IMG/VR virus record: IMGVR_UViG_3300042402_007915
Location: 1 to 64,000 of that record
Source: a virus
DNA: 64,000 nt
Reading direction: 5' to 3' (one strand)
The notes under the pieces are model-generated. The model was given only the letters and a program-made list of their open reading frames with translations, did not search any database and was not told the DNA's origin. Made by a program: the position numbers and the translations under genes. Of this stretch, positions 14,761 through 64,000 are shown in pieces. How positions within the stretch are numbered: position 1 is the stretch's first letter; each line of letters opens with the position of its first letter.

Positions 14761-14775
14761 TTTGTTTATTTATTT

Positions 14776-14875: not shown

Positions 14876-14879
14876 CCCA

Positions 14880-15443: not shown

Positions 15444-15460
15444 TTAGAGTGAGTATTTAT

Positions 15461-15494: not shown

Positions 15495-15500
15495 GTAGGC

Positions 15501-16277: not shown

Positions 16278-16397
16278 GTTGACTCCCGGTCGGTCTTACC
16301 AGCCGTGCGAATGTGGCACTACACTCCAGTACAACACTGGGATGTAGTTGGTCCGGTAAGACTCTCCATGAACCTACACTCCGAAGGAGAAACATTT

Positions 16398-16434
16398 GCC
16401 CTTGAGAGATGATTGGGGATTAGAGGTGGCGCCG
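16398..16434 (-). promoter_or_regulatory. Repeated CTCAAGG element (leftward)
   Basis: - strand: CGGCGCCACCTCTAATCC then CATCTCTCAAGGGC, with a longer spacer than most copies. About 120 bases upstream of the 16277 start. Confidence 0.58.
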
Positions 16435-16458
16435 ACTTGTTGAGTGAGTATTTATTGA

Positions 16459-16486
16459 GGAAACAAAGGCCCGCCGAAGCGGGCCA
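16459..16486 (-). terminator. Terminator after 16489-16713
   Basis: GGCCCGCTTCGGCGGGCC followed by TTTGTTTCC on the - strand. Confidence 0.85.
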
Positions 16487-16488
16487 GG

Positions 16489-16713
16489 CTACCCTTGGAG
16501 CCATTTCGTGTCCACCCCGTCGGGGATGGGCACGTTGGAAGGCCACCGCCCTTCATGGACAACAACATCTTCGGCTATGTAGCGAGCCTCCCATACACTA
16601 TTCTGGGAGACTTCGTCCTGGACAACATCCAGGACGGCTTCGAGCTGGTTTCTACTAACCAGCCAGGGCTCTTTGATGGCCCTGTCAATCAGGGCCTTCT
16701 GTTCTGGTGACAT
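16489..16713 (-). CDS. Small hypothetical protein, 74 aa
   Basis: MSPEQKALIDRAIKEP start with GGAGGTGCAAGG upstream. Compact, acidic, helical N-terminal half and a Pro/Val-rich C-terminus. Has the UUCG leader (CCC-UUCG-GGG) and its own terminator. No family recognised. Confidence 0.7.
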   Translation of the reverse strand: MSPEQKALIDRAIKEPWLVSRNQLEAVLDVVQDEVSQNSVWEARYIAEDVVVHEGRWPSNVPIPDGVDTKWLQG

Positions 16714-16760
16714 CCTTGCACCTCCGAGGAATAGAACTCCCGAAGGGCATATTTATTGGG

Positions 16761-16788
16761 GGAAACAAAGGCCCGCCGAAGCGGGCCG
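16761..16788 (-). terminator. Second copy of the GGCCCG hairpin terminator
   Basis: The same GGCCCGCTTCGGCGGGCC stem as at 16468, followed by TTTGTTTCC. It would end a short RNA lying between 16790 and 16850; a 19-codon frame from GTG at 16850 to TAG at 16791 is the only ORF there. Confidence 0.7.
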
Positions 16789-16820
16789 GGCTACGGGAGG
16801 AACAGGGCCACCTCGAAGAG

Positions 16821-16850
16821 GGCGCGCCACCTATTTTCCCTCAAGGGCAC
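16821..16850 (+). promoter_or_regulatory. Repeated element (rightward)
   Basis: GGCGCGCCACCTATTTTCC then CTCAAGGGCAC, among the best matches to the consensus. It directly abuts the tail of the terminator at 16868. Confidence 0.6.
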
Positions 16851-16867
16851 AACGATTATTTATCAAG

Positions 16868-17092
16868 AAGAAACAAGAGCCCCTCCAATCCATTTAAGGA
16901 CAGAGGGACTCTCATAAAGACAGAGGGCCACAAGCCCTCCATCCCCGTTTACGACTGCTCCAAGGTTACCCTTGTGAGTCGAGCGATTCACGCTCACCCA
17001 TGCAGTACGGCTCTGCATGGGATTAGGAGATTGAGGAGGCCCAGTCGCCTGGGCTCCCTCCTCCGTCACCGAACCAAACCCCCCGAAGGGGG
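16868..17092 (-). ncRNA. Candidate structured non-coding RNA, about 220 nt
   Basis: The ORF here runs straight through a terminator and so is not a gene. The - strand shows five consecutive hairpins: CCCCC-UUCG-GGGGG (about 17073-17090), GGAGG/CCTCC with AGCCCAG/CTGGGC (about 17028-17055), perfect 9-bp CCCATGCAG/CTGCATGGG (about 16999-17024), GAGCG/CGCTC (about 16980-16996) and GAGGGC/GCCCTC (about 16922-16940), then a terminator (16878-16910) with CTTGTTTC. Function unknown. Confidence 0.55.
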
Positions 17093-17093
17093 A

Positions 17094-17279
17094 TTAACGA
17101 GTGGCCTGGCTACGCAACCAGGCCACTTTTCCGCTCGCCGCGTGGGCAATACCCCGGGCCTTTTTCAGCCACGGGGAGTTCTTTTTCCAGCGGGGGGTAG
17201 CCCGCTTGGCAGCGTAATAGTACTGCCAGGCCCTCCACTCCGCGCTGAGGGCGTTCTCGAGCTCCTCTTCCAGGTCCAT
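17094..17279 (-). CDS. Small basic protein, 61 aa
   Basis: Starts MDLEEELENAL with GGAGGTGACC directly upstream. An acidic first ten residues, then a basic Trp/Lys-rich remainder (PRWKKNSPWLKKARG). The last codons form a GTGGCCTGG/CCAGGCCAC hairpin, so coding and terminator-like structure overlap. Likely nucleic-acid binding; no family recognised. Confidence 0.65.
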   Translation of the reverse strand: MDLEEELENALSAEWRAWQYYYAAKRATPRWKKNSPWLKKARGIAHAASGKVAWLRSQATR

Positions 17280-17340
17280 GGTCACCTCCAAAGAAACCTT
17301 CAGAACTTAATCCTGAAGGGAGCGCGGAGTGCTGATAATG

Positions 17341-17370
17341 GCGGCCACCTCTTTATTCTCCTCAAGGGCC
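17341..17370 (+). promoter_or_regulatory. Repeated element (rightward)
   Basis: GCGGCCACCTCTTTATT then CTCCTCAAGGGCC. It is the only copy between the terminator of 17428-18162 and the 17094-17279 gene, so its orientation is opposite to that gene. Confidence 0.58.
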
Positions 17371-17382
17371 CATTATTTATAA

Positions 17383-17422
17383 CAAGAAACAAACCCCGCC
17401 CACCAATGAAGGTGAACGGGGC
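17383..17422 (-). terminator. Terminator after 17428-18162
   Basis: CCCCGTTCACC pairs with GGTGGGCGGGG on the - strand, followed by TTTGTTTCTTG and TATAAATAAT. Confidence 0.85.
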
Positions 17423-17427
17423 TGGGA

Positions 17428-18162
17428 CTACCAGGTGACGTGGCCGAAGCCAAGGTTCAACATCCAGGGGTCGGGCTCGACGAGCCGGCGGACCGGCCCT
17501 TCGGGGGGAGCAGGCACTTTTGCCCACTCCATGACCTCGAAGTCGGCTGGCGTGAGGCTGGCGATGCGGGCCTCGGCCTCTTCGGCTTTGGCCTCCAGTC
17601 CCGGAATCTTGACCTGGTACCAGGCCAAGAGATCAACGGCGCGTTCGTCGGCCTGAGAGGCGTACTTGGTCCCGGTGGTCCCGGGAGGCCATTCGAGAGT
17701 GGCCCACCCCGAATCCCGGCCCCGGGGCTTGTGGTGGATTACCACCTTGGTCCCCTTGGGCCACCAGCCCAAGAGGTCACCCTCGGCGTCCTGGACCACC
17801 CCGCCCACGAGACGGACTGGGGTGTCCTCCGCCAGGACGTGGTCGTGGCAGAGGCGAGCCGGGATGTGGGCCGCCGGGAGGTGCGCGTTGCGCACCTCCA
17901 CCTGGACCGCCCGTGCTTCGGCTTCGGCGGCCCGGGCTTCGACTTCCGGAAGGAGGCCCTTGAGGTGGGCCGCCTCCTTCCGCCAGTCTTCAACGTTGAC
18001 CAGGTCGCTCTGAGCGGCGTGCAGCCGCCCCTGCACCGGCCACAAGTACCCTTTGCCCTCGTCACCGTACCCGACGAAGAGGTGGGGGACAGGATCCACC
18101 ATCCGGGGGATGATGGGGGTCTCGGAGATCACGTAACCGTACTTCCAGCAACGATAGAACAT
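17428..18162 (-). CDS. Coiled-coil-containing GC-rich protein, 244 aa
   Basis: Starts MFYRCWKYG, with GGAGGTTATT upstream. N-terminal 55 residues look like a small beta domain; residues about 60-100 and 185-210 are Glu/Ala heptad-rich; between them is a Gly/Trp-rich domain (GDLLGWWPKGTKVVIHH) reminiscent of an SH3-like barrel. Function unknown. The leader (18163-18266) holds the inverted repeat ATACAACACT/AGTGTTGTA-like around 18238-18260. Confidence 0.7.
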   Translation of the reverse strand: MFYRCWKYGYVISETPIIPRMVDPVPHLFVGYGDEGKGYLWPVQGRLHAAQSDLVNVEDWRKEAAHLKGLLPEVEARAAEAEARAVQVEVRNAHLPAAHIPARLCHDHVLAEDTPVRLVGGVVQDAEGDLLGWWPKGTKVVIHHKPRGRDSGWATLEWPPGTTGTKYASQADERAVDLLAWYQVKIPGLEAKAEEAEARIASLTPADFEVMEWAKVPAPPEGPVRRLVEPDPWMLNLGFGHVTW

Positions 18163-18266
18163 AATAACCTCCACAGGACTTGCAGAGCCTGGTCTATCCA
18201 GGATGCAGTCCCTATCAATGAATCCACATCACGAAGTGTACAACATTAGTAGTGTTGTATAGTTTG

Positions 18267-18376
18267 GCCCTTGAGAGAATGAATGGCCGCGAGCTTCGTG
18301 TGAGCGGAGTTGGTTTGGAGTGGGGATTTGGGTGGCATCAACAAAGCGGCGGCTATCCTATTTCTCTCAAGGTAAC
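18267..18376. promoter_or_regulatory. Best inverted pair of the repeated element
   Basis: Leftward copy 18267-18291 and rightward copy 18346-18376. Read outward both give GCGGC, then TATT or CATT, then CTCTCAAGG, so the pair could face two promoters apart or fold one RNA into a ~23-bp stem with a ~55-nt loop. Confidence 0.65.
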
Positions 18377-18830: not shown

Positions 18831-21800
18831 TCAATCCGGGACGTACTCAGTCCATTCGCCGAAACTTGGCTGGTCGTCTTCCGACTCCTCAGCACTAGGA
18901 CCATCCAAATAGGTGTCCTTCAAGTCTTCGGCGAAGCCCATGATGCTGATCCAGGAGGAGTAAATCCCCTGTTCAACCAAGCGGGCAAAGAACTCAGTAT
19001 ACATCTCATCCACCGCTTCCGGTTTCAGGAATGCGCGTTTACGGTTACAGGGCACCATTCCGGCGATACTGTTCCGATACGCATCCTTAGCCCGGAGCTC
19101 CCATCTACGTTGGGTCATTGCAAAATGGAGTGACTTGTCATCACGCAATTTCTTCTGCAATGCGGCAGTCAGCGAAACCAACTTGCCAGTAGACGGGAAA
19201 GCAGGAGCATTCGCGCTGCGGATACGAGCGACAGCAGCCTTTTTCAAGACAGCCATGCACTCTTCGCACTCGTGAAGAGGCTTATGCTTGGTCCGGAAAT
19301 GTTCCACCTGGATCCCAGGCACCTCCCCTTCTTGCGTCGGGTAGGCGTAAGCCGTGTCGAAGGCGAGCTCTGCAACCAAGGCACAGAGTTTAATCTCGTT
19401 CTTCCCACGGAGAGGAGTCAGCTTATGCTTCGAGACAAAGTAGCTAACATATCCGTCAGCATCCTCCGCCGTCAGCAGGCAAGACTCCTTGGTCTTGGTG
19501 GAAATGATATCCAGAAAGGTTGACCCCTCAAAGCACAGGGCGTCGAGAGCCCTGCTGTCTGCTTTGGTGAGCCAGTTCAAGCCGCCGTCTTTCTTGACGT
19601 TCAACTCGGACTGGGGGGTGCCCAAGGGTTTGTCCCCAACCTTCTGGAGCTCGACATAAATACCCGCCTCATTATTCCCACGCCGGTAGGCGATACACGA
19701 GAACAAGCTTTCGCGTGCCCAAGTGATCCAGGGAGCCAGGGCGTCTTTAGCCTGCTCTTCCCGCATTTCAGCCGAGAACTGCTCGTAAGCAAAGTCCATC
19801 GCCAATTTGCGAGCACTACTGGACTCTTGCGAGTCCGAGTTGTGGCCTTCCCCTTCACGGGTTTCCCCGTTCGAGTCGGACAAAGACATAGCCTCATAGA
19901 TGTTCTGATCGAGCCGAGCCAGCGGGTGGAGCGGGACTTTCGTCTTCTCCATCCACTTACCCATGGCATCGAAATCAATACACCGGCTATTCTGCAGGCG
20001 CCAGACAACGCGTTGATCGCGCCAAGCCGCCAAATGAGAACCCTCAGCAGGGTTTTTCCAAGAGTCCCCCTCCCCTTGGATAGTCCGGAAGATCTTATCT
20101 ACCACCCAGAAGAGCGGCAGCCGCTTCTCACCATAGTTCACCATCGGAGGGGTCGCCCCGCTCTGTTCGGCTTTCTGGTGGAGAGCACGGAGGATCCGGT
20201 AGGGAAGCCCTGCGCAAGGCTTAGCCGGGCGGTTAAACCCAAGCTCCTCACGCCGCTTTTCCCAAATTTGACACGCTTTGGTGTAAGCGATGTCAGAGAG
20301 ATTCGCTTGGTACCTCAACGACCCGAAGGCGTTGGGATCAATCCGCTTCCGGAGACGCTCACCCATTGCTGAGTTATTGCGCCGCCATCCGAGGACACCA
20401 AAGAACGCACTCATACCAACCGCCTCCTTAAACTTATCCTGGAAGTAAATCAGGACTTCGTCGGAGGAAATCAGCCGGCATTTTTGCGACAAGGTGAGCG
20501 AATCGAAGGTCTCGGCCGCTTCTCCAGGTATCAGCTTGAGGACAGCCTTATCCTGGTCGAGGAAGTTCTCAGATGAGATACCATTCCCCTTGAGCGAGCC
20601 AAACTTGAACGCCTTCCCGTTGGAGTCAAGGTCGTAGTGGCAGTAGATGTGACCATCTGCCATTTTCTTCCAGGCCCGAAGGTTAGAAACCTTCGGAGCG
20701 TTCGTCCAGCGCACGATCCGCTTGGCGCGGTCAATGCTTTCCTGAATGAACGTACCCCATGCGGGAATCCATCCTTTAGCTGCGTCAACGATATATTTCA
20801 CTCGTTCCGCGAGACCAAGGAACCCATCACCATCCTGCCAAGTAGCAGGGTTGGATTTCTGCTCAGACCAATAGAGGCTTTTAACCCTCCTAAAGGCAGC
20901 ATGCCACTTGCCCATTCCCTCAGGATCTTCCTTGAGGTACTCGATTTTATCGAGCCGAGCCCAGTACCGCAGATCAACGAGGCGCGCCTGATTAATGGCG
21001 TACGCACGAGCCTGCAGAATAGTGGCTTGCCCCACAGGACCCATAGGATCCTTGAGCAGGTAACCGTAAAACGCCTCTTGATCCTCGAAAGGAATCGACA
21101 TCTTTTCGCCAGCCGGTTCGATCCGGAAGGTAGGCTGCCAGATCCGACGGTTTGCAAGGAGTTTCACATCCTCGTCCGTGGTCCAAGCAGCAATGTCGCC
21201 GTCGTCGTCACCCTGGAGATCGGTTACATCATCCGGGTTCATGAAGACAGCAAAAGGAACGACAATCCGGTCGACTACCTCACCGTCAGCGTTTGCCACA
21301 CTCAGCGTCATGTGGGGGAGGGGATCCACCACCTTAAGCGTCATGAGCGACTGAGGGAGAATAGCAGGAAAGCGCCAAAGAACCGTTTCATCGCCTACAG
21401 CGGGAAGCTTCTGGTTAACACCGCCGATCACGCACTCACCCTTGTTCAGGGAGTTGTCCATGACCATGACGACCTGGTTCCCTTCGAAACCGGTGCCATT
21501 GGCAATGTTATACAGTCGCCGCTTGAGCTTATCCTCTGCCATCTGACGAAGGACAGGGATGTCAAGCAAGCTGTAGTCGAGTCCAAGCTCTTTAGCAACC
21601 CGAACCATGGTGATCTGGTTGTTGAGGGTGGTGTTGCCGCCACTATCCTCAGAGATCAAACCATCGACACCATCCTTGAGCAGCTTATCCATGGCCTTTT
21701 GGACCAAGCGTTCGACTGCCGCGGTAGTGTCGTTATCGACCTTGACGAGCTGCAATAGCTCAAAGCATGACTTGATCGTGCTTGCGCGTGACCAAGTCTT

Positions 21801-23000
21801 GAGAATGCCCAAATGAGCCTTAACAACCATTTCAGCGTCCACCTCATCCTGCGCTTTCGCCCAGTCTTTGGCAGTACCCTTAATCTGGTTCCAAGCAACC
21901 CGGACAGTGGGGTTACCGGCTGCATCGACACAAGTTTCATCGGGAACCAACAAGCCTTTAAGGAACATGTTCCTGTGCTCGGGGTTACCGGTGACTTCTT
22001 CGAGGCAGAGGCCACGAATTTGGATAACGGGAGCGATCATCCCACCCTGGTATGCGACCCCGCGTTCTTGGATGAACGCTTGAAGGAATTCGCAGTTCGG
22101 GTGGTACTTACCACTACCGTCAACCAAAGCCCGGATCTTCTTACCCTCGCGGTCGTTCACCCAAATATTACTAAGGGTTACTGGTACCTCGGGGAAGAAA
22201 CCACCGGGCAAAAGCGGGGACTTGAATGAACCAACGTAGGAACCCACGTTGATCGCATCACCGAAGACACGCTCCAGCAACGCAAAGGCAAAATGTTTGC
22301 CACCATTCTTACCCAAAGTGTTGAAGGCGGTCCGCCCTTCGAGCACACCCATATCATTCTGTCGGAAGACAGGATAGAGCAGCTCTCCAGGGGGCCTCCC
22401 CAGATTCTCCGTTGATTCGACCGGCAGGAAGAAATCCCCGTCGATATCAAGGAGCCCGTTGTGCCGCAAGACACAATCGAGCAAGCCTGGGGCCCGAAGG
22501 ACCTCCAAAGTTTGCACGCAAGGGAGGATTTTCTCCCGAGCAATGCTAGTCATTGCCGTAAAGTGGTAGGGGCTCTCAAAGCGATCCCCTTCCCGGCAAT
22601 GAGCATAAGCCTCAGCAGCATCCTCCAAGATGCCGTTCGACTTGAAGAAGCTGAGTGCAGTCTTGGACTGACCAGCAGCTGCAGCCATCCGGCCGGAGGA
22701 CTTGCGTTCCACCCGACCATAGGTCTGCATAATCTTGGTGCGGCGATAGAGCGCCGAGTTAGCCATCATGGCCGCGTACGTCGAGCGCCGCGCATCCAAT
22801 TTGGCCTTCAGCTTCTTAGCCGCAACCAGCAAAATCTGATCGACCTCGTCGGCCGTATCAGCGGGGATTGGAGTCCCCTTAATCAGCGCACGGAGAATCC
22901 CCGGCGCAAAACGACGGAGCACCTTTTCCAGGCGCCCGTTCGCTGCCAGAAGGGGCGGCACCACGACGGTGCGCCTCTCCTGGACTTCTGTTGCTTCCAT
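18831..23000 (-). CDS. Putative single-chain two-barrel RNA polymerase (DxDGD)
   Basis: 1389 aa. Start at MEATEV, four bases after AAAGGAG; a longer frame to 23054 lacks one. Residues 597-602 read GDDDGD: three aspartates D598, D600 and D602 in the DxDGD arrangement that binds catalytic magnesium in the beta-prime subunit of cellular RNA polymerase, QDE-1-type polymerases, YonO of phage SPbeta and crAss-like phage polymerases. About 70 residues upstream lie NKGECVIGG and LWRFPAILPQS, which resemble the strands leading to the catalytic loop in the same double-psi barrel. The length fits a single-chain enzyme carrying both barrels. Expected role: transcribing phage genes from phage-specific promoters. 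I have not found the first-barrel lysines with certainty. Not virion-associated by position (early strand). Alternative: another protein using an acidic loop by chance. Confidence 0.75.
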   Translation of the reverse strand: MEATEVQERRTVVVPPLLAANGRLEKVLRRFAPGILRALIKGTPIPADTADEVDQILLVAAKKLKAKLDARRSTYAAMMANSALYRRTKIMQTYGRVERKSSGRMAAAAGQSKTALSFFKSNGILEDAAEAYAHCREGDRFESPYHFTAMTSIAREKILPCVQTLEVLRAPGLLDCVLRHNGLLDIDGDFFLPVESTENLGRPPGELLYPVFRQNDMGVLEGRTAFNTLGKNGGKHFAFALLERVFGDAINVGSYVGSFKSPLLPGGFFPEVPVTLSNIWVNDREGKKIRALVDGSGKYHPNCEFLQAFIQERGVAYQGGMIAPVIQIRGLCLEEVTGNPEHRNMFLKGLLVPDETCVDAAGNPTVRVAWNQIKGTAKDWAKAQDEVDAEMVVKAHLGILKTWSRASTIKSCFELLQLVKVDNDTTAAVERLVQKAMDKLLKDGVDGLISEDSGGNTTLNNQITMVRVAKELGLDYSLLDIPVLRQMAEDKLKRRLYNIANGTGFEGNQVVMVMDNSLNKGECVIGGVNQKLPAVGDETVLWRFPAILPQSLMTLKVVDPLPHMTLSVANADGEVVDRIVVPFAVFMNPDDVTDLQGDDDGDIAAWTTDEDVKLLANRRIWQPTFRIEPAGEKMSIPFEDQEAFYGYLLKDPMGPVGQATILQARAYAINQARLVDLRYWARLDKIEYLKEDPEGMGKWHAAFRRVKSLYWSEQKSNPATWQDGDGFLGLAERVKYIVDAAKGWIPAWGTFIQESIDRAKRIVRWTNAPKVSNLRAWKKMADGHIYCHYDLDSNGKAFKFGSLKGNGISSENFLDQDKAVLKLIPGEAAETFDSLTLSQKCRLISSDEVLIYFQDKFKEAVGMSAFFGVLGWRRNNSAMGERLRKRIDPNAFGSLRYQANLSDIAYTKACQIWEKRREELGFNRPAKPCAGLPYRILRALHQKAEQSGATPPMVNYGEKRLPLFWVVDKIFRTIQGEGDSWKNPAEGSHLAAWRDQRVVWRLQNSRCIDFDAMGKWMEKTKVPLHPLARLDQNIYEAMSLSDSNGETREGEGHNSDSQESSSARKLAMDFAYEQFSAEMREEQAKDALAPWITWARESLFSCIAYRRGNNEAGIYVELQKVGDKPLGTPQSELNVKKDGGLNWLTKADSRALDALCFEGSTFLDIISTKTKESCLLTAEDADGYVSYFVSKHKLTPLRGKNEIKLCALVAELAFDTAYAYPTQEGEVPGIQVEHFRTKHKPLHECEECMAVLKKAAVARIRSANAPAFPSTGKLVSLTAALQKKLRDDKSLHFAMTQRRWELRAKDAYRNSIAGMVPCNRKRAFLKPEAVDEMYTEFFARLVEQGIYSSWISIMGFAEDLKDTYLDGPSAEESEDDQPSFGEWTEYVPD

Positions 23001-23067
23001 GTGACTCCTTTGTCTGGGAAGCGAAGGGTTGGGGAATATCGACGTTATTGTCATACCCCGCGTGACT

Positions 23068-24269: not shown

Positions 24270-24310
24270 AAACCCATAGAAACAAAAAGGGGCCCGTTAG
24301 GGCCCCTAGC
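24270..24310 (-). terminator. Terminator after 24355-24579
   Basis: GGGGCCCTAACGGGCCCC on the - strand followed by TTTTTGTTTC. Confidence 0.75.
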
Positions 24311-24354
24311 TAGTATTTACCACGCGCCCTAGCTAGGCGCAGAATACGACGTGC

Positions 24355-24579
24355 CTAGAACGGCATCTCGTCGTATTCTTTCCCCTCTTCGGGAGCGGAA
24401 AGGGCGGGGACATAGCCCGCCCAAGGATCCGGGCGGCGCTCGGCCGCCAGGAGGTGAAAGAGAACGAGCTTCTCCTGGGCCAAAGCCCAGGAGAGGTCGC
24501 TGTGAGTGCGGCAGGTGTGGCATTCACCACACCCGACCGCACAGCCGCGGAAACGGTTGTCAATAACTTGCACCTTCAT
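24355..24579 (-). CDS. Cys-rich small protein with SSB-like tail
   Basis: 74 aa. Cys cluster CAVGCGECHTC at about residues 13-23 (possible metal site), an amphipathic helix, then a flexible segment and the end KEYDEMPF, close to the D-D/E-x-P-F tip of SSB. Ribosome binding site AAGGAGGAAC. Likely binds a metal and docks on an SSB-interacting protein; inference only. Confidence 0.7.
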   Translation of the reverse strand: MKVQVIDNRFRGCAVGCGECHTCRTHSDLSWALAQEKLVLFHLLAAERRPDPWAGYVPALSAPEEGKEYDEMPF

Positions 24580-24599
24580 AGTTCCTCCTTAGGAACTAG

Positions 24600-24697
24600 G
24601 GCTTAATTGCCCATGAGAAAGAAAAAGGCCGCCCTTCCTAAGAGGGCGGCCTGTGACCATGCTTTTTTGTTAACTCGGAAAGCCAACCGAGCGAGAC
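24600..24697 (-). terminator. Tandem 3' hairpins after 24698-25090
   Basis: First CTCGGTTGGCTTTCCGAG, then TTAACAAAAAAGCATGGTCA, then GGCCGCCCTC/GAAGGGCGGCC followed by TTTTTCTTTC. The same two-hairpin layout recurs after 27965-28105 and, in variant form, after 25266-25625. Confidence 0.75.
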
Positions 24698-25090
24698 TCA
24701 GAGAGTCTCGATCTCCTCCTCCCGGAGACGATACATCTCCGCGACGCGCCGCCGGGCCGTCTCCCAGTTTTTATCTTCTGCGCAAATCTCGGCCGTGCGA
24801 CCTTGATATGAGAACCTAAACCAGTAAAACCTGTAGATGGTGGGCCAGCCGGGCCCGCTGACCCATCTCACCGGGTCGCAGTCACCGCCCGCCTCGGAGA
24901 AGCCGTCGAGGTCGTCGGGGTCATCGCACATATCATGGTTAAGAAAGACGTCTTCGTCGTCCCCATGACAGTCCTTGGCGGCGGGGGCGGCGGTGGTGAT
25001 CATGCCGAGGTAGGCCTCGAGCTCGACCCAGCCGTCGCCGCCGAGGTCGAAGTCGAAGTCGAAGCGGTTGCCGCGGTTGGTGCTGGACAT
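24698..25090 (-). CDS. Very acidic protein, 130 aa
   Basis: Starts MSSTNRGNRF; GGAGGACAAC lies directly upstream (an ATG four codons earlier overlaps it). Residues about 9-65 are exceptionally Asp-rich, then an aromatic patch (YRFYWFRF) and a helical end. Strong negative charge recalls DNA-mimic proteins that block restriction or DNA-binding enzymes; that is a guess from charge alone. Confidence 0.7.
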   Translation of the reverse strand: MSSTNRGNRFDFDFDLGGDGWVELEAYLGMITTAAPAAKDCHGDDEDVFLNHDMCDDPDDLDGFSEAGGDCDPVRWVSGPGWPTIYRFYWFRFSYQGRTAEICAEDKNWETARRRVAEMYRLREEEIETL

Positions 25091-25184
25091 GTTGTCCTCC
25101 ATGGTACAATACCTAATACCTCATAAGCCCATCATACTAAATTGTATGACTGCCTCCTTTTGGCTTCAATAGATACGAGTACCA

Positions 25185-25262
25185 TAGAAAGAAAAAGGTC
25201 GCCCCTCCTAAGGGGGCGACCTATGACCATGCGTTTTTGACGCCCGGAACGCTAACCGGGGG
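25185..25262 (-). terminator. Tandem 3' hairpins after 25266-25625
   Basis: CCGGTTAGCG-type hairpin, CAAAAACGCATGGTCATA, then GGTCGCCCCCTTAGGAGGGG stem with TTTTTCTTTC. Confidence 0.75.
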
Positions 25263-25265
25263 CCA

Positions 25266-25625
25266 CTACTTGGTAGTGGCCAGGGCAACCCAGGAGGGCG
25301 TGCCGATCGTCAGGGCGGTGAGGCCCAGGACGCCGGCGAAGGTCGCCGGCACCAAAGCCGTGAGGCCCAGCAAAGACACCGCCGCCACAAGGACGGCGGC
25401 AGCGGCCATACGGGGGGCGATGAACTTCCGCACCGCTCGCGCGGTGCGGGCCACGGGGCGCCGAGGGGCGCGAATGACGCGACCCTCGGCAAGAGGCGAG
25501 ATGGAGGCCGCGACCCAAGCCGCCTCCATCGGGTTCGGGGCCGGGAGGGAGGCCGCCGCCTCAACGGCGACCTCCAGGGCGACGGGGAACTCCGCCGCAA
25601 CAAAAGACATCTGGATATGGTTCAT
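25266..25625 (-). CDS. Ala-rich membrane protein, 119 aa
   Basis: Starts MNHIQMSFVAAEF with TGGAGGT upstream. Ala/Val/Pro-rich N-terminal half, a basic middle (RAPRRPVARTARAVRKF), and a C-terminal region with two hydrophobic helices (about residues 72-112). Likely a membrane protein with a cytoplasmic basic segment. GC-rich codon use. Confidence 0.68.
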   Translation of the reverse strand: MNHIQMSFVAAEFPVALEVAVEAAASLPAPNPMEAAWVAASISPLAEGRVIRAPRRPVARTARAVRKFIAPRMAAAAVLVAAVSLLGLTALVPATFAGVLGLTALTIGTPSWVALATTK

Positions 25626-26027
25626 ACGAACCTCCAGCGGGTATTTCTACCCGAATAGTTGGGGAATCGCTCCCCCGGGGCCATAACACGCTCTGGCAGG
25701 CGCCAACCTCTTAATTATACTCCCAGAGATTGGTGTAGGAGTTTGGTGTCAAGGCTTCTAAGTACCTTGACGGGATAACCTCAGTTATCCACTTGGTCTG
25801 TCGGGAGTTTAGTGTCCGTGTGTGGTTTGACCAGTAACACACACAGACATCGGTTGCGTGAGCATAGGCTGCTCCTTTCGGGCCTGTAGGAGAGTGGGTT
25901 AGTTTTAAGTGCGGCCACTATTCCTCCCCTAAGAGAATAGCTTTCACACTAATGGGTTAAGCCCATTACTCTGTCCCTCTAGGTCTCTTTAGACTCTATA
26001 CCTTGAGGGGATAAGAAGAGGCGCGGC
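25626..26027 (-). other. Long structured leader or non-coding RNA
   Basis: About 370 bases between a leftward repeated element (25999-26027) and the 25625 start, without a gene. Inverted repeats: AATGGG/CCCATT (25951-25967), CTATTC/GAATAG (about 25918-25941), GTGTGT/ACACAC (about 25822-25850) and GGATAAC/GTTATCC (25773-25790). A TTATCCACT resembling a DnaA box lies at 25785-25793. Confidence 0.4.
25911..26027. promoter_or_regulatory. Pair of repeated elements in facing order
   Basis: Degenerate rightward copy at 25911 (GCGGCCACTATTCCTCC) and a good leftward copy at 25999-26027 (TACCTTGAGGGG to GGCGCGGC). Unlike the pairs at 13-18 kb these face each other. Confidence 0.5.
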
Positions 26028-28526: not shown

Positions 28527-28528
28527 CC

Positions 28529-34740: not shown

Positions 34741-35172
34741 ATGATTAACTTTAGCCACAAAACTGCTCTTTGGAATGAGATCCGAGAACTCCTAGTCGCA
34801 GGTAAGCGCGTAGCCGTGTTCGGCAATGATCAGAATTTTGAAGACTTAGTTTCTTTCCTCATTCCGGTTGTTTACATCCAGCTCGAACACGAAGGTCCGC
34901 CTCCCAAAAGGATCGGAAAGTCTTGGTCTATCCCCGTAACTAACTACAATACTGTCATTGAGTTCTACAATACAGACAGTATGGATCAGATTGACGAATT
35001 CAAAGACAGGTATCTTCTTAACCCCAGCAAGCTGGATTACATTGTTACAATTGAGCTCCGTGATAACCCGACTGTCTTTGATGCTCTCATGATGGATGTA
35101 TTGCCTGTTTTGGCAATCATCTCCGAAACTGAACCCGACATTTACGTTCAAAGGAAGATTTTTGATGTCTGA
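34741..35172 (+). CDS. Hypothetical protein, 143 aa
   Basis: Alternating beta and helix segments (AVFGNDQNFEDLVSFLIPVVYIQ) suggest a small Rossmann-like or flavodoxin-like fold, but no nucleotide motif is clear. Overlaps the terminase start by eight bases, so it may be a packaging accessory. Confidence 0.65.
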   Translation: MINFSHKTALWNEIRELLVAGKRVAVFGNDQNFEDLVSFLIPVVYIQLEHEGPPPKRIGKSWSIPVTNYNTVIEFYNTDSMDQIDEFKDRYLLNPSKLDYIVTIELRDNPTVFDALMMDVLPVLAIISETEPDIYVQRKIFDV

Positions 35173-37345
35173 AGAGCTGACCCTAAAAGGCCTAGAGAAG
35201 AGGCTGTACACTAAGAACGAGTACGGCATTAAACACCAAGACCCTAACCTTTCCCTCTCTGAGGAGGAAGAGGCGTTTCTTAGGGACTTGTTTACCATTC
35301 CTAGTCACTGGCATAAGACTTGCGTCTCTTGTATTGCAAGGCAGCATGCAAAGTACGGAGAAAACAAGATTAAGTGCAAAGGCATCAATAGTGAGTTGCC
35401 CGAAGGGTCCGCCGAGCTACTTGACGAGTTAGTAATTGAAAAGGGCATCGACAAAGACAGGGCCCTTCTGGTCCTTCGTGCAAGCCAAGACCCAGTTGCT
35501 TGGGCCGAGCTGATGTTTGGTTTTGATGACAAGACAAAAGGCACTGAAAACGAGTACTACATTCGGTCATATCAGAAAGAGCAGCTTCGTTGTACGGCCG
35601 AAAGTATGGTCATACGTGAAGGAAGGCGTACTGGTAAGTCTTTCGTTATTGCACTTAAGCTGATTTGGTTAGCCTTTAACCACAAAGTGTCTCGAGGCAT
35701 GAAAGACGGAGTTGCTGTAACTACAGGACCCCAAATTCTCATTGTTACTCCATACCAAGTACAGATTGACAACATCTTCCAAGAAATTGAAGGGCTACTA
35801 CTAAAGTGCCCTGAGCTGGCAGATGAGGTTTTGACTGGAAATAGCGGCTCTCTGTACGCCAAGACTCCTCCTTTGCGTATGGAGTTCAAGAACAGAGCTA
35901 GTATCAAGGGATTCGTTTCAGGCGTCTCAGCCAAAACTGACGGTACTGCAGGAGGTACTATCCGCGGACAGTCGGCCGACATCATTTACCTGGACGAGAT
36001 GGACATGATCCCCGAACCCATCTTGACCAACGCTATCCTCCCGGTACGTCTTACTCGTCGTGGAACGAGGATGATTGCCACCTCAACGCCTATCGGAAAG
36101 CGTGGCCACTTCTATAACTGGTGCAAAAACAGCTCAAATTACAAAGAAGATCACTTGCCCACTACAGTCTTGCCACACTGGGAAAGCGAAAAAGACAGTA
36201 TCCTAGGAGATCAGACTAAAGACTCACTCATGGCAGAGTACATGGCTGAGTTCATTGATGGAGATAACTCGGTATTTAAGTCTGAATGGATTAGAAGGGC
36301 CCGTTTTGAGTATGAATACGCCAAAACCACCTCGCATCGGTATGTAAAAGAGCGGCTCTTTGTTCAAAAGCCCCAAACTCTCTCAAAATGCCTTGGTATC
36401 GACTGGAACAAGAATGCTGGCACTGAATTCGTTGTCACTGGCTACGACAGAGACGCTCATAGGTGGGTAGTCCTTGAGGCAACAAACATCCCTCAGTCCG
36501 AGTGGTCTTCAATCAGGTGGAAAGAAGAGGTAATTCGCCTAAATCAGAAGTGGGAACTTGATTACATCTACGCAGACGAAGGATATGGCCACACAATCAT
36601 CGAAGACTTGCGTGCTTACTCACTAGCAATGCAGTCTATCGAGAAACCGGACGCAAGACAGAAGTCAATTGCACGTCTAGTAAACGTAATTAAGAGCCTC
36701 AACTTCTCATCTAAGATCATCTTGCGTTCTCCCGTAGATGGCAAGGAAATTCCAAAGACAGCAAAGGACTTCCTGATTGAGAACACAATCCGTATCTTTG
36801 AAGAGGACGCCGTTGCTTATCCTCTCGAGGACGACCAGCTGTTCAAAGAACTAGAAAACTACACAATCTTGAGAAGAAACCCAAGTACTAACAAGGCTGT
36901 TTATGGCCCCAAATCTGACAAGATTGGAGACCATAGGCTGGATGCCTTTATGTTGAGTCTTGGTGGGTTGTTCTTGGAGTTAAGTGAGTACAGTCCTAAC
37001 ATGTATGGAAGCTCGAACGCGCACTCCTTAGACAAAGAGACCCTTGAGAAGAGAGCGCAGGCAGAAGAAGCCGAAGGTACTGTTTCTCAATTCTTCAGGG
37101 ATATGAAGAAGACAAATGTTTCCCTAGACATGACTGCATTGTTAGTTTATGGAAATGATGGTAAAATCCTAAATAACCCAAATGAGGTAGAAAAGCTTTC
37201 TCATATTGGTAGAAGAGGGAAACCAAATACGTCTGGGTCTGCTTACGAGCACTACAAGGAACTAAGAAACGTTCCTAGCGGAGATCCTGACTATGCTCAA
37301 CAGAGTGAAGCAAAAGTTCTAACTCGTAGAGGATTCAGGAGGTAG
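35165..37345 (+). CDS. terL: Terminase, large subunit
   Basis: 726 aa. Motor domain: Walker A GRRTGKS (about 153-159, the Lys is K158), Walker B IIYLDE with D277 and E278, and the coupling motif ATSTPIGKRG. Nuclease domain: catalytic acidic residues in GIDW (D413), ADEGYG (D471, E472) and HRLDAF (D593), the RuvC/RNase H-like set. It pumps DNA into the prohead and cuts the concatemer, working with the portal and a small subunit. Start at MSEELTLKG, with GGAAGA upstream; a longer frame overlaps the preceding gene. Both activities appear intact. Confidence 0.95.
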   Translation: MSEELTLKGLEKRLYTKNEYGIKHQDPNLSLSEEEEAFLRDLFTIPSHWHKTCVSCIARQHAKYGENKIKCKGINSELPEGSAELLDELVIEKGIDKDRALLVLRASQDPVAWAELMFGFDDKTKGTENEYYIRSYQKEQLRCTAESMVIREGRRTGKSFVIALKLIWLAFNHKVSRGMKDGVAVTTGPQILIVTPYQVQIDNIFQEIEGLLLKCPELADEVLTGNSGSLYAKTPPLRMEFKNRASIKGFVSGVSAKTDGTAGGTIRGQSADIIYLDEMDMIPEPILTNAILPVRLTRRGTRMIATSTPIGKRGHFYNWCKNSSNYKEDHLPTTVLPHWESEKDSILGDQTKDSLMAEYMAEFIDGDNSVFKSEWIRRARFEYEYAKTTSHRYVKERLFVQKPQTLSKCLGIDWNKNAGTEFVVTGYDRDAHRWVVLEATNIPQSEWSSIRWKEEVIRLNQKWELDYIYADEGYGHTIIEDLRAYSLAMQSIEKPDARQKSIARLVNVIKSLNFSSKIILRSPVDGKEIPKTAKDFLIENTIRIFEEDAVAYPLEDDQLFKELENYTILRRNPSTNKAVYGPKSDKIGDHRLDAFMLSLGGLFLELSEYSPNMYGSSNAHSLDKETLEKRAQAEEAEGTVSQFFRDMKKTNVSLDMTALLVYGNDGKILNNPNEVEKLSHIGRRGKPNTSGSAYEHYKELRNVPSGDPDYAQQSEAKVLTRRGFRR

Positions 37346-46165: not shown

Positions 46166-47449
46166 ATGGCTACTCTAAAGCTTACTGACGGCAACGAGGT
46201 TCCGGTTGAGAACAACCAGGAGTCCGCTCGTCTTCTGAACTATGCGTTTAACAACTCGGGGCACATTCCTGGGCAGGCGGAGGCTCTTGATTGGAGTCGT
46301 TTCGTAGGCTCGCTGAAGGACACTGTCGCTGCAGGTTCGATTAAGCCGCTGCTTACCTCGAGCATTGAGATTACGATGCGTGAGAGCGTTGAGCCTCTTA
46401 TGCCAATCCATACCCTGTTTGATGTAATCCAGGCTCGCGGTATGTCGACTCAGGTTGTTGCTGGTGCAATCGGCGCTGCCTTCCATGCTGCTGACGTTGG
46501 TGAGCAGGGTACTTACCCTGAAGCCACGTTCACCATGGGTGGTGGCATGCAGACTGCCATGATTGGCAAGTGTGGTATCCAGCAGTCGTTCACCGACGAC
46601 GCTCTTCGCTACGCCAACTTCGACCTCATGGGCTTGAACCTCCGTGAGATGGCAAAGGCAATGAAGCGCCACAAGGAGAACAAGGCACGCGCCTTCCTCC
46701 GTCAGCTCGGTGTTCCTCTCTTCGACAACGCTGACCCCACTTCGTCTCTCTTTGGTATCTGCACTGGCCGCGGCCTTGATATGGCCGCTAACGGCGCCCT
46801 TACCATGGACGACCTCCTGAAGGCCGTTTCTCACTCTGCTGAGCAGGGTTATGTTTACGACCTCCTGATTGTCCATCCAACCACCTACCTCATGTTCCAG
46901 CACGATCCGGTTATGCGTAACCTGTTCCTCATGGGCCAGGGCGGTTCGTACTTCGGTCAGACTGCTGGTAACCCCGGTCCTCTCGATCCTTGGGGTTGGG
47001 GTAACATGGGTCCTGCTCGCGGTCGCTTTGTCACTCCGGTTGGCGCTGCTAACGGTGATGACCCGACTGGCAACTTCAACTCAATCGCTTGGGGTTCTGA
47101 TAGCCGCCCCGTCCTCCCCTCCTACGGTCCCAAGGGCATTACTGTCCTCGCTTCGGCTATGGTTCCGTTCGACGAGTCGACTGGTCTTTCGGACGCCTAC
47201 TTTGTCTCCAGCGGCAACGTTGGTATGATGCTGGTTGATGAGGGTGAGACCAAGGCTGAGTGGTACGACCAGACCCGCGAGGTAACGACCATCCGTATGC
47301 GCGAGCGTTACGGTTTCGCCATCAAGAACGATGGTATGGGCGTTGGTCTTATCAAGAACCTGAAGGTTGTCCGTAACTACTGGGATGGTGCTGTCCACGC
47401 CGAGGCTGCTCCTGTTGAGCCCATCGACGTGACCACTGCTGTAGTCTAG
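46166..47449 (+). CDS. Major capsid protein
   Basis: 427 aa, at the usual position after protease and decoration genes and followed by a strong terminator. Features consistent with the HK97 fold: N-terminal arm, MTMRE-type strand with the E-loop region (QVVAGAIGAAFH), the spine helix (LNLREMAKAMKRHKENKARAFLRQL), a P-domain and the A-domain strand series (GVGLIKNLKVVRNYWDG). Codon use is biased toward a few codons, as in highly expressed genes. Forms the icosahedral shell. Confidence 0.82.
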   Translation: MATLKLTDGNEVPVENNQESARLLNYAFNNSGHIPGQAEALDWSRFVGSLKDTVAAGSIKPLLTSSIEITMRESVEPLMPIHTLFDVIQARGMSTQVVAGAIGAAFHAADVGEQGTYPEATFTMGGGMQTAMIGKCGIQQSFTDDALRYANFDLMGLNLREMAKAMKRHKENKARAFLRQLGVPLFDNADPTSSLFGICTGRGLDMAANGALTMDDLLKAVSHSAEQGYVYDLLIVHPTTYLMFQHDPVMRNLFLMGQGGSYFGQTAGNPGPLDPWGWGNMGPARGRFVTPVGAANGDDPTGNFNSIAWGSDSRPVLPSYGPKGITVLASAMVPFDESTGLSDAYFVSSGNVGMMLVDEGETKAEWYDQTREVTTIRMRERYGFAIKNDGMGVGLIKNLKVVRNYWDGAVHAEAAPVEPIDVTTAVV

Positions 47450-60100: not shown

Positions 60101-61280
60101 CGAGTTTAACAAAACCCAAAGAGAGGTTTATAAGAAACGGTACGAAGGTGGTTACAACAAAGAGCAAGAGGTACTGATTGATACTGTAGCGGCTAATGCA
60201 GCATCAGTAATCTCAAAGCTGGATTTCAGAAGGAATGACCCTAACGCGTATAACACGGCACTGACACCGATAACAGGCGGCCTCTTCCATTCTCTCCTCT
60301 CGGTAGCAAGAGAAGTAGCAGCACCTGCTGAGTACTTATTCCCAATGGGTTTCCGCCCAATGCAGAAACTTACTGGACAACTAAGAACCCCAATTGAAGA
60401 GTACGAACACAGAAGAATGTACGGAACAAATATGGCCTTCTGGGATAAGCCAATCCGAGACTGGTTCCGTCCTGCTGCTTACAGTGCTGCTCACCTTGCG
60501 GGCTTTGATGGGAAGCCTGGCTGGAGAACAGAAGCAGATGCGGCGTCTCAAAGATTCGACCAAATTGAATTTGTAAAGTGGATGCGTCTTGCACAGACAG
60601 CTAAAGAAAATGGTCTCAAGAATGAAGAGAACCAATACCTCTGGGCTGCTCAGCAGACCCGCGCAGGAGTAAACCCTCAAGGCTCCCCCCTTGCCATTTA
60701 CTGGGCTCTCCCTGCCGAGGACAGAGCCTTTATGGACGCGTTCGCAAGGGCTGCACCTACTGAGAGGGGACGTATCCTAGAAATGGTTCCTAAGGACCAG
60801 CAGCACCTCTACAAGGCCTTGTGGAGTCGACTCGACAGTGGAGATCCAACAGTCCAGTACCCGACAAGTGCCAAGGTAGACGGCTTAGCCTTAGCACAAA
60901 AAGCAGCAGTCCTCGAGCAACAAATAGCTATGCCCAAAGAAGACTGGATTGGCTGGAATCAAGAAGTGGATATTTCAGACATTAAAGTACGCTATGCTCA
61001 AAACCATGCACTTGATCTTCAAGACTATGGCATGTGGGACAAGCAGCTTAAAAAGTCTTATAACCAGTCCTTTCTTGATGGAGCTGAACTAGAAGTGCCT
61101 GTGCCAAGTGCAATCATGGCGCAAGAGATTCGAAACAGCCTTTCATCAATGGGGGGGCCGCTAAATTCGAACTATACAGTCAATACCACGTACGGTATGT
61201 CTAGGGCAAAGATTGCTGTTAACGATGACAGAGAAGGCGCTATTCAAAGGTTAAGAAGGGAGGCTAACTATGGGCTTTGA
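57183..61280 (+). CDS. Tape-measure-position protein, 1365 aa, with hydrophobic segments
   Basis: GTG start right after GGGAGGTAGGTA, overlapping the preceding stop by one base. Gly/Ala-rich hydrophobic stretches occur at about residues 28-45, 320-400 (AAAFGGAVLAVDQLDWF, then GAAATFLGQLILPGF), 430-455 and 620-665. The remainder is helical with many charged residues. Position directly after chaperone candidates and a length of 1365 residues fit a tail tape measure (or a combined tape/ejection protein), but the repetitive coiled coil usual for tape measures is weak. Confidence 0.55.
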   Translation: MAFESFRGPDIWSSEEAPNSNANLYNSGQFAVAAAVAGGGLYAGYKFNNNSMYPMIEGASDKFRRIGNLTPFQLANTFRIPEFLSFFTSAQYKNRVLNLSGNASPVSGVIEWGRDALQNEDTADYISSITGRSRNELAALGFEPTRIKNLVGADNAKLSWEATGAGRGRLSFVQSLSGVESRALLSEDIAVGAFSHEVNAAAGGHKGEVNKLTEGMMRAAGVGERTDDSVNKILRSYTASGSTAPSFMPVPSMLGRLDSFEDLARRSTILRGIYSFSANRFNELMETFVDTMGGDKTKEFMRNVLGVNPKVKGGTASSLIARYAGRAAAFGGAVLAVDQLDWFRRQHSFGQVFSSGVMSAGFAYAAQKMGHTRVAKYGAAATFLGQLILPGFDEGVVPGVASSLASLDVIRGSPLNPMTHYRRAVEGLLPGFTGFEFTALTGAAALLATSIRSPISGQTLAEKIFSKYGNIVGVGHGNIDNYYGVNKEALSPRDIYWNKVSEAVDQKVGAPIGMERRTLKERALLFNRFEKLFGADADFTANSLFQAAETEHKELMRNSFTTSGGINNRMVEALRGVASKYQGQGLGKKVMMNVEGFGVQLLYSVFGADASYNKDIRSAIKGLGFKGPVGSFGKLLTVAGAGMAAHSILSGNLLGSLAGSEELSRIYSGEQLVEVKSSRAWEAGGTPFEGGETSYFRPHQLALMRSRAREKAVWGENEDEISPLKKFFIKNFTYDLERMNYYRRPYQMTGSAFQDVPIVGDILAGSVGQLIKRARPMHLGEWVREGESGLEYASLFKGAKAEPAYALGAPKPGAPVSPFAAGEIAKQMVYQFREIEGMTGWAKNIIQQTLTGSAQWENPAQSIATSNEMDSTKRNFWEMNLGGALFSNEIMRRILPPDRQGLVKQNAIRNDMPYWLPDKFHYGDPFTQVEWGDARLPGAGYEALHPELRGMDPNDYPLIARYAILGDVAPTSYEFNKTQREVYKKRYEGGYNKEQEVLIDTVAANAASVISKLDFRRNDPNAYNTALTPITGGLFHSLLSVAREVAAPAEYLFPMGFRPMQKLTGQLRTPIEEYEHRRMYGTNMAFWDKPIRDWFRPAAYSAAHLAGFDGKPGWRTEADAASQRFDQIEFVKWMRLAQTAKENGLKNEENQYLWAAQQTRAGVNPQGSPLAIYWALPAEDRAFMDAFARAAPTERGRILEMVPKDQQHLYKALWSRLDSGDPTVQYPTSAKVDGLALAQKAAVLEQQIAMPKEDWIGWNQEVDISDIKVRYAQNHALDLQDYGMWDKQLKKSYNQSFLDGAELEVPVPSAIMAQEIRNSLSSMGGPLNSNYTVNTTYGMSRAKIAVNDDREGAIQRLRREANYGL

Positions 61281-64000
61281 TCCATTCACAAGAATGCAAG
61301 AGAAGAAGGAAAGGACTACAGACGGCTTTGCGGTCGCCGCTAGTCTTGCGCCTGCTGTGGGCGTGGCAAGCTATCTTTGGAAGCAGCAAGTGAAGAACGG
61401 CCCCATTAATCCTGTCTCCTCTCTAGGTCTGAAGAATGACACTTCTGACTTCGGTAGAGAACTTGGTAAGGCCCTAAAGCCAAAAGAAAAAAAGGAAGCA
61501 GCAATAAAGGCCTTCCTGGAAGGAGATGCTTTTGCCAAGGTAGTTAGTAAAGCCCAAGACAGAAGAGCCTTAATTCAGTCTGTACTGATTGGACTGGACG
61601 CTGATGAGCTTGGAGTCGACAAGGGAGCCCTTGCTGACCTAAAGGACAAACTTCTTAAAATCGGTGAATTGGACCAAGACGACCTTGCCGATGACCTGAT
61701 TCGTCCTCTCAGGGAGGTCATTGATACGCTTAACACCTCTGGTAACGATTCCATGAGGAGTAAAGTGGCCGAGAACTTCCAGGAGCTAAAAGCGTTCAAG
61801 AAGAAGATTGTTCCGGCCAAGCCTTTTGGCAGTCGTCCCTCTTCGACGAGTTTCAGGGTGCTGGATCAAAGCGCTCTAACTAACTTTGACACCTTCAGGA
61901 CTCAAGTTAGGTCTGCCGGTGCAAACGCAGGAGACGAAGAGCTTTCAAGAATCTTCAATGACCAAGTTGGAAGCATTAAACGGTTTATCGGTACGAATCT
62001 CGATAATGCTCAGCTAGTCGTTGTCGACGCTGCAGCTGGTGTTAAGTCACTAAACCTTAGAATCATGCAGGGTACTAAGGGGAACATGAGACCGGTTATG
62101 AACCTGCCAGTAGCGTTCAACCTCGGCAACACCGATGCGTCGATGCCTAACATCACAAGAATGGGGCGTGACTTTGCTACAGGGTACTTTGTTCCGCAAG
62201 GCGTTATCGACACAAGAGAAATCTTGCATCAGCTTAAGGAGGGAAAGATCACTCCGGGTAACGTAAAGGGTGTTCAGTCGAATATGAAAAGCTTCGGCAG
62301 CTATGCTCTTGGCTTACTAGAAGAACACTTTGAAATGACCCCGAGTGGAAGACTGAAGTCTCGACTTGGCACCACCAACAAAAAAGCACAGTCTGAAATG
62401 TTTGCAGTGCTAAATGCGAACATGGAGAACATGCCTAGGTCTCTGTCTGCGACTCTAGAATCGAATGAAGCTCAGGCCGAATACCAGTCTCATGTTAAAA
62501 AGCGTGCTGGTGCTAAACACAAGACTGTTTTGCTGACTCATGGTGAAGCTCTTACAGATGCTGACTTCAACTATGTGCATACTTCCTTGATTGGTGGAGA
62601 TTCTCCTTTTGACCCTGGTGTTGGTGCTTCTCGTTTGCAGAACATAATTGGTGGTCGCAAGTTTGGTTTGCTTCAGTTGTCGAGTCATTCTGTTCATAGT
62701 CGTTACAGATTGCCGTTTAAGGTGTCGCGTAAAGACGCGCCACTTATTGCTCGACAGGAGCAGGTAGAAGGTCGTATTGGTCAGTTCATTGCTCGAGGTG
62801 GAAAGGAAAACAATCCGACTATCAGAGGCGGACTGACTCTGGGAGAAGAGACAGCCTCTCCTATCCTTGAGGGAATGACGGGACACAAGAACGTACTTGT
62901 TGCAGTTGACGTCACAATGGGAAAAGGAAAGGGCGCTTATTCTGCGGCAGAAAATGAAGGTCAGTACTTTGTTCCAAAGAACAAAGGAGCAGGTCTTGGT
63001 GCCTACATCACAGAGAGCACAATCCCGCTACTCGACCCCGAAGAACACAAGCTTATGTCTTCAGAGCTACTCGAACAATTAAAGGCAGATTTCGAGGCAG
63101 GAAAGCCGCCGCGTTATTTCACGCTTGAAGAGATCGGCAAGCTTAACGGATATCTTGGTCACTCAACGCTTGGTAACAGGACTGTAAGGATTGATCCTCG
63201 TATGCTCGGCGCGTATATGGGTATTGCAGAGACAACAAGTGCTTCTGGAAAGAAGCAAATTCACCTGACATCTCGAGCTGTTAGAAAGGCTAGCGCAGGC
63301 AAAGTCTTCTCCACCTCGACAGTAAAAGGAACTTATAGAGCAACGAGAACTGCTTCTATCCGGCGAGATCTATCTACTTATGGTAGGACTAACTTGGTAG
63401 ACGGAAGACTTGTCAGAGAAGACGTATTCGACCGCATTCTCACTGACGTAAGTGGTGTAAAAAGCGGAGCCGGCCTAAACATCAAGGGTTCGTTTATCAC
63501 GGGCTCTGGAGACGTGCTGAAGAAGTCTGCTGCAAACAGGGCCAACTTCCTATTGACCTCCGCCGCTGTCTCTCTAGGTCAAAAGCACTCCAACCTCCTT
63601 CATGAAATGACTGGTAAAGTAAGCAGCTCGGAAGAACACTCCAGTTACCTGTTTAACAAGATTGCCACAGCTTTCGAAGCGGGACAAATCTCGGAAAGCC
63701 AAGCAGCCAATAGCTTATCTCTACCTTGGTGGGGAGGAGGCAGAGGAACAGGTAAAGGCGCTTACGCTCCGGAAATGAAGTCTATCGCAGATGAAATGCT
63801 TAAGCGTTCGCAAGAGACTACAGAGCAAGGAAAGAAGTGGGCTGCCCTGCTTGAGCTAACAGAAAAAGGACTTCAGGTAGGTGTGGATACTGTCACGCAG
63901 GGTACGGGACACGGAGATTACGGACTGGGTCGCGCATCTATTGAACCGAGAGCAATCGGGTTCATTCGCATGTCTCTCCAGGACATGGGTTTTGACAGCA
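61270..64000 (+). CDS. Partial large virion-type protein, open at the right edge
   Basis: At least 910 codons with no stop; ATG at 61270 overlaps the previous gene's last codons by 11 bases. Starts MGFDPFTRMQEKKER, then a hydrophobic stretch (FAVAASLAPAVGVASYLW) and a long mixed protein with Gly-rich turns (GTGKGAYAPEMKS, GTGHGDYGLG). Likely a tail or ejection protein continuing past the window. No enzyme motif was certain in the visible part. Confidence 0.72.
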   Translation, partial: MGFDPFTRMQEKKERTTDGFAVAASLAPAVGVASYLWKQQVKNGPINPVSSLGLKNDTSDFGRELGKALKPKEKKEAAIKAFLEGDAFAKVVSKAQDRRALIQSVLIGLDADELGVDKGALADLKDKLLKIGELDQDDLADDLIRPLREVIDTLNTSGNDSMRSKVAENFQELKAFKKKIVPAKPFGSRPSSTSFRVLDQSALTNFDTFRTQVRSAGANAGDEELSRIFNDQVGSIKRFIGTNLDNAQLVVVDAAAGVKSLNLRIMQGTKGNMRPVMNLPVAFNLGNTDASMPNITRMGRDFATGYFVPQGVIDTREILHQLKEGKITPGNVKGVQSNMKSFGSYALGLLEEHFEMTPSGRLKSRLGTTNKKAQSEMFAVLNANMENMPRSLSATLESNEAQAEYQSHVKKRAGAKHKTVLLTHGEALTDADFNYVHTSLIGGDSPFDPGVGASRLQNIIGGRKFGLLQLSSHSVHSRYRLPFKVSRKDAPLIARQEQVEGRIGQFIARGGKENNPTIRGGLTLGEETASPILEGMTGHKNVLVAVDVTMGKGKGAYSAAENEGQYFVPKNKGAGLGAYITESTIPLLDPEEHKLMSSELLEQLKADFEAGKPPRYFTLEEIGKLNGYLGHSTLGNRTVRIDPRMLGAYMGIAETTSASGKKQIHLTSRAVRKASAGKVFSTSTVKGTYRATRTASIRRDLSTYGRTNLVDGRLVREDVFDRILTDVSGVKSGAGLNIKGSFITGSGDVLKKSAANRANFLLTSAAVSLGQKHSNLLHEMTGKVSSSEEHSSYLFNKIATAFEAGQISESQAANSLSLPWWGGGRGTGKGAYAPEMKSIADEMLKRSQETTEQGKKWAALLELTEKGLQVGVDTVTQGTGHGDYGLGRASIEPRAIGFIRMSLQDMGFDS

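Follow-up and report, generated by a model that had tools for sequence, protein, structure and literature searches.

A highly divergent single-chain RNA polymerase of the two-barrel superfamily is very probably encoded by a 0305phi8-36-like phage

The window analysed here, positions 1 to 64,000 of the 147,225-base virus record IMGVR_UViG_3300042402_007915, contains a gene that very likely encodes a phage single-chain RNA polymerase (RNAP) of the two-barrel superfamily. Homology, motif conservation, fold class and a conserved gene position, all computed, support this assignment. The minus-strand open reading frame (ORF) spans 18831-23054 without internal stops; the first ATG, at 23054, gives 1407 amino acids (aa), and an in-frame ATG at 23000, with which the start of the nearest homolog (L122) lines up, gives a protein of 1389 aa. 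In the 1389-aa numbering DDDGD occupies residues 598-602, NKGECVIGG begins at residue 519 and LWRFPAILPQS at residue 541. A preliminary description made from the sequence alone had reported the ORF size, D598-x-D600-G-D602 and both preceding strands, and all are found at these residues; the strand of the gene was absent from it, and the 'early gene set' to which it assigned the gene is suggested by position and orientation alone. A second DxDGD string (DIDGD, residue 185) varies among homologs and is incidental. The elements of the gene are listed below, with the double-psi beta-barrels (DPBBs) delimited using AlphaFold2 (pLDDT, predicted local distance difference test).

18831..23000, minus strand: probable single-chain two-barrel RNAP gene, 1389 aa (1407 aa from the ATG at 23054)
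21771..22199, minus strand: approximate DPBB-A (beta-type barrel), residues 268-410, strand-rich, pLDDT about 75-96; boundaries inferred from predicted secondary structure and confidence
21957..21959, minus strand: K348 in F-x-K-G-(I/L)-L-V-P, aligned with KGLLVP of YonO; invariant in 15 sequences
21867..21881, minus strand: K374-G-x-x-K378 in Q-(V/I)-K-G-x-x-K, DPBB-A lysines with a presumed catalytic or substrate role, from the 15-member alignment
21180..21485, minus strand: approximate DPBB-B (beta-prime-type barrel), residues 506-607, pLDDT 83-96; boundaries inferred from predicted secondary structure
21366..21374, minus strand: R543-F-P545, the R-x-P motif ahead of the catalytic loop; invariant in 15 sequences, aligned with P23-45 gp64 and YonO
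21195..21209, minus strand: D598-D-D600-G-D602, predicted metal-binding loop between a predicted helix (589-594) and a predicted strand (603-607)
20721..20744, minus strand: Q753-x3-D757-x2-K760, downstream of the catalytic loop and, judged from QDE-1 and gp64, in the bridge-helix area; invariant in 15 sequences, aligned to P74-26 gp62/P23-45 gp64 and QDE-1
19257..19268, minus strand: C1245-x-x-C1248, C-terminal CxxC and possible zinc site; invariant in 15 sequences

As a single query the 1389-aa protein gave no match in Pfam, PHROGs, PDB sequences, INPHARED or IMG/VR. Relatives of the phage were gathered by terminase alignment, yielding 80 in IMG/VR, and the protein was searched against 50 records, 49 of these terminase relatives plus one phage record. 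Homologs were present in 14 of the 50, the best sharing 37% identity over residues 147-1294 (E 6e-150). Scanning IMG/VR and GTDB contigs with profiles provided further homologs, and a profile search added seven more records that carry larger and more divergent versions of the polymerase. This larger subfamily comprises proteins of about 1,850-2,200 residues with the motif GD(D/N)DGD or RDSDGD and matches the family with an E-value of 5.5e-21 (2.2e-11 for a single member); in L165-L170 such versions of about 1,850-2,200 aa lie at the same locus and have extra domains.

In the 15-member alignment, whose positions convert to the 1389-aa numbering by adding 149, the invariant residues are K348, G349, K374, G375, K378, R543, P545, D598-D602, Q753, D757, K760, W777, C1245 and C1248; in a 12-member alignment K374 is likewise invariant and K378 is present in 11 of the 12. 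Residues 598-602 read DDDGD or DNDGD in all members of the family alignments, so that the aspartates, whose loss in close homologs would have spoken against a polymerase, are retained throughout. D598, D600 and D602 thus form the DxDxD triad that the two-barrel superfamily carries in its second barrel, and the conserved basic residues expected from the first barrel are probably K348, K374 and K378, as KG and Q-x-K align with YonO.

Profile-profile comparison with hhalign related the family to YonO, with an E-value of 3.1e-6 for 12 sequences and 6.1e-7 for 15 sequences over 342-362 colinear columns. The score against YonO was 69.1, as compared to a maximum of 20.5 in 60 column shuffles, 21.6-22.0 for reversed alignments and 14-16 for terminase and capsid profiles used as negative controls. 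Even the single sequence of P23-45 gp64 was matched by the family (score 46.7, E 8.5e-5), the alignment spanning RxP, DxDGD and the bridge region. The Pfam family PF05183, RNA-dependent RNA polymerase (RdRP), matches the homolog L183 (5.4e-12, 45.6 bits with a cut-off of 23.8), the G015 homolog (2.1e-5) and two YonO relatives; it does not match the window protein itself, which therefore does not reach the curated cut-off, and phrog_8308, the YonO profile, is matched by YonO and by neither the window protein nor its homologs. Searching PDB sequences with the family profile aligned QDE-1 (E 0.42) from the catalytic loop to the bridge region and P74-26 gp62/P23-45 gp64 (E 0.64-0.73) at the right places, none of these being significant alone. 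Of the profile comparisons proposed in the preliminary description, the one with YonO was significant and the one with QDE-1 was not on its own. A TrpA-like match in the same search (52 residues, E 4e-4) was judged spurious, as it covers a short helical segment of a TIM barrel, and DxDGD matches in Moorella phage MTATph1 (an annotated primase) and Bacillus phage KLEB27-3 (structural region) were ruled out by context.

An AlphaFold2 model of residues 150-1340, computed from 15 sequences, has a mean pLDDT of 69.8 and a predicted template modelling score (pTM) of 0.72; most blocks of model residues 120-470 lie at 79-96, core blocks mostly exceed 85, and the catalytic loop is flanked by a short helix and a strand. 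All 25 Foldseek matches in the PDB with E<=0.001 are two-barrel RNA polymerases, among them QDE-1 (8.6e-10), P23-45 gp64 (5.9e-8), RDR2 from maize and Arabidopsis (7.4e-8), P74-26 gp62 and P23-45 gp96, and the viral library returned the same class, including P23-45 gp64 (A7XX94). Through these matches the model points to a fold with two double-psi barrels, in agreement with what the preliminary description had expected of a structure prediction. Cellular largest subunits followed at an E-value of 0.07 or worse and the non-virion RNAP of AR9 at 0.2. Both barrels reside on one polypeptide with the first barrel N-terminal: K348 and K374 precede R543 and D598 in a stop-free ORF that is colinear with YonO. 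Multisubunit RNAPs of jumbo phages, by contrast, distribute the barrels over separate beta and beta-prime chains. Three observations weigh against the assignment, namely modest template modelling (TM) scores to known structures (0.14-0.44), 289 residues with a pLDDT below 50, and the lack of a significant Pfam, PHROG or PDB-sequence match for the protein alone; the low TM-scores are in part due to large extensions that are poorly modelled. Taken together, conservation, the profile matches to YonO and gp64, PF05183 on the homologs, and AlphaFold2 with Foldseek strongly support the single-chain two-barrel polymerase that had been proposed.

The further suggestion that the protein stands outside the known groups and forms an evolutionary link is not supported, since it aligns with the RdRP/YonO/P23-45 clade, to which it very probably belongs, and an RNAP has already been proposed in its lineage. 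In 2007 orf99 of Bacillus phage 0305phi8-36 was put forward as a phage RNAP from its PF05183 match, with a monocistronic transcript and phage-specific 21-bp promoter candidates (PMC2147016), and Iyer et al. (2021) described the enzymes of 0305phi8-36 and c-st as YonO-like, a single chain containing both barrels (PMC7824862). YonO (PMC5467207) as well as P23-45 gp64 and gp96 (PMC10770324) are verified RNAPs. The window protein thus adds a new, highly divergent member to a kind of enzyme that was already known.

YonO, the single-chain DNA-dependent RNAP of Bacillus phage SPbeta, also carries both barrels in one chain, and DG-x-G, KGLLVP, Q-x-K, R-x-P, D-x-DGD and ID-x-AK are colinear, WVKGLLVPF, SQFK, RSPHL, DNDGD and ID-x-AK of YonO corresponding to FLKGLLVPD, NQIK, RFPAI, DDDGD and ID-x-AK in the window protein. 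However, identity over the aligned part is 14%, YonO has 839 aa as compared to 1389 aa, and the new family possesses long N- and C-terminal extensions and the C-terminal CxxC. The non-virion RNAP P23-45 gp64/P74-26 gp62 (8f72, 8f5m) is similar from R-x-P to Q-x3-D-x2-K and in fold, and its gene is likewise divergent and upstream of the terminase gene, but with 616 aa it is less than half the size of the window protein and similarity is undetectable with single sequences. 0305phi8-36 orf99, a proposed single-chain two-barrel RNAP, belongs to the same lineage by terminase and capsid relatives, lineage and published description rather than sequence alignment being the connection. QDE-1 and plant RDR2 are the best fold matches, yet they are eukaryotic RNA-interference enzymes. 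The crAss-like phage RNAP (phi14:2 gp66) is also a single-chain two-barrel enzyme and weak fold matches occur among crAss-like proteins, but the phi14:2 entry reached only E 0.008 in a comparison made by fold alone.

By analogy with YonO and P23-45 gp64 the polymerase would be made after infection and would serve a set of phage genes, transcribing them from DNA independently of the host core enzyme. DPBB-A (about 268-410) would supply the conserved lysines K348, K374 and K378, and the second barrel (about 506-607) R543-x-P545 and the aspartate triad 598/600/602 holding the catalytic magnesium ions, with Q753/D757/K760 probably being part of the downstream bridge-helix area. DNA-dependent activity, non-virion status, timing, and the genes and promoters served are what we infer for this enzyme.

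The gene might instead encode a virion RNAP, packaged and injected with the genome, as P23-45 has both kinds of enzyme (PMC10770324) and the first genes need a transcriber if it is not the host enzyme; this is unlikely, since the gene is separate from the structural cluster and on the strand opposite to it, as is that of P23-45 gp64, which is undetectable in virions. We consider it rather improbable that the protein is an RNA-dependent or mixed-template polymerase that copies RNA in a regulatory role instead of transcribing phage DNA. The top PDB fold matches, QDE-1 and plant RDR2, and the PF05183 matches of the homologs would fit such a role, but the tested phage members of the clade, YonO and P23-45 gp64/gp96, are transcriptases (PMC5467207, PMC10770324), and RNA copying is of no obvious use to a double-stranded DNA phage, as argued in PMC2147016. 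A regulatory or structural protein that retained the two-barrel fold and lost catalysis, for which the very divergent sequence and long extensions could speak, is highly improbable given that all 15 homologs, divergent as they are, keep the three aspartates, the lysines and R-x-P. That DxDGD occurs by chance in a large protein unrelated to polymerases, as the non-conserved copy at residue 185 and other isolated cases in the proteome might suggest, is refuted by conservation, profile and fold evidence.

The position of the polymerase gene was compared relative to that of the terminase, which served both to find relatives and as synteny anchor.

35096..37345, plus strand: terminase large subunit (PF03237 4e-11, phrog_2)
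46166..47449, plus strand: major capsid protein, grouping the phage with ME3, KLEB27-3 and MTATph1

Relatives of both proteins occur in Acinetobacter phage ME3, KLEB27-3 and MTATph1, and the annotation of ME3 notes similarity to Bacillus phage 0305phi8-36. The polymerase gene is divergent, on the opposite strand, and 10-21 kb upstream of the terminase gene in 19 of 19 records (18 lineage records and ME3), three of which were treated as circular or circularly permuted. The presumed ME3 ortholog, at the same divergent position, is ME3_309 plus ME3_307 (DVDGD), which resemble two exons of an RNAP gene (L017:31800-37200; ME3 222-227 kb) with an intron-like stretch containing an endonuclease-like ORF just upstream of DVDGD. 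This suggests an intron-split RNAP ortholog, which rests mainly on synteny because comparison of the ME3_307/309 pieces with the family profile was not significant. Just upstream of the terminase gene, 30602-33742 encodes a 1046-aa protein with a staphylococcal-nuclease (SNase) domain at residues 751-863. No tRNA gene was found within the window.

The repeated intergenic element CCTTGAG-N(4-20)-G(G/C)CGC, for which the preliminary description had regarded the polymerase as a plausible reader, occurs on both strands in 19 copies in the window (0.54 expected; at 3674, 11528-18372, 26001, 31663, 40121 and 40981) and 30 in the contig, several copies being antisense within late genes. Nine relatives, the two closest polymerase carriers among them, have 0-1 copies each, and as the element is absent from relatives we draw no link to a promoter of the lineage. 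Phage promoters diverge fast, so this absence argues neither for nor against the polymerase as its reader. At 24274-28841 of the window CCATAGAAA-N-AAAAAGG repeats, followed by a conserved TTTCTATGG, resemble the T-tract side of hairpin terminators of minus-strand genes.

A candidate second RNAP starts within the window.

61270..64000 (contig 61270-66573), plus strand: 1767-aa structural-cluster protein, with DADGD beyond the window

DADGD is located at residue 1350 of this protein, and its homologs (L193-L198, L205-L217) contain DADGD, DNDGD, DMDGD or DFDGD, while two others carry DFDKD and DHDAD. All aligned copies of this region retain the three aspartates, and conservation is likewise complete for R-x-P, a lysine and a K/E set further downstream. 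Comparison of the family with P23-45 gp96 by hhalign was not significant, though R-x-P aligns. The AlphaFold2 model is poor (pLDDT 58.3, pTM 0.51) and Foldseek found nothing significant with it (best E 0.017), the top 50 matches being nearly all RNAP beta-prime chains, many of them redundant. These observations are suggestive of a virion RNAP. The lineage may thus have two two-barrel RNAPs, the single-chain non-virion enzyme and one within the large tail/baseplate-cluster protein, which would enter the cell together with the injected DNA to transcribe the first genes like the tape-measure-fused P23-45 gp96, from a sequence family that looks unrelated; we regard this as possible, at somewhat less than even chances. 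Next to it, contig 66573-75479 encodes a 2968-aa protein with Peptidase M23 (4.4e-8) and endolysin-family stretches, a tail lysin or tape-measure-type protein.

The assignment implies that the whole 0305phi8-36-like lineage, mostly metagenomic, has its own single-chain RNAP of 950 to about 2,200 residues, and that these RNAPs escape standard annotation. Compact and diverse relatives of cellular RNA polymerase are thereby gained for structural and evolutionary work, and early transcription in 0305phi8-36-like phages becomes testable. If the second candidate is a true polymerase, a distant group of myoviruses would resemble P23-45 in using two polymerases.

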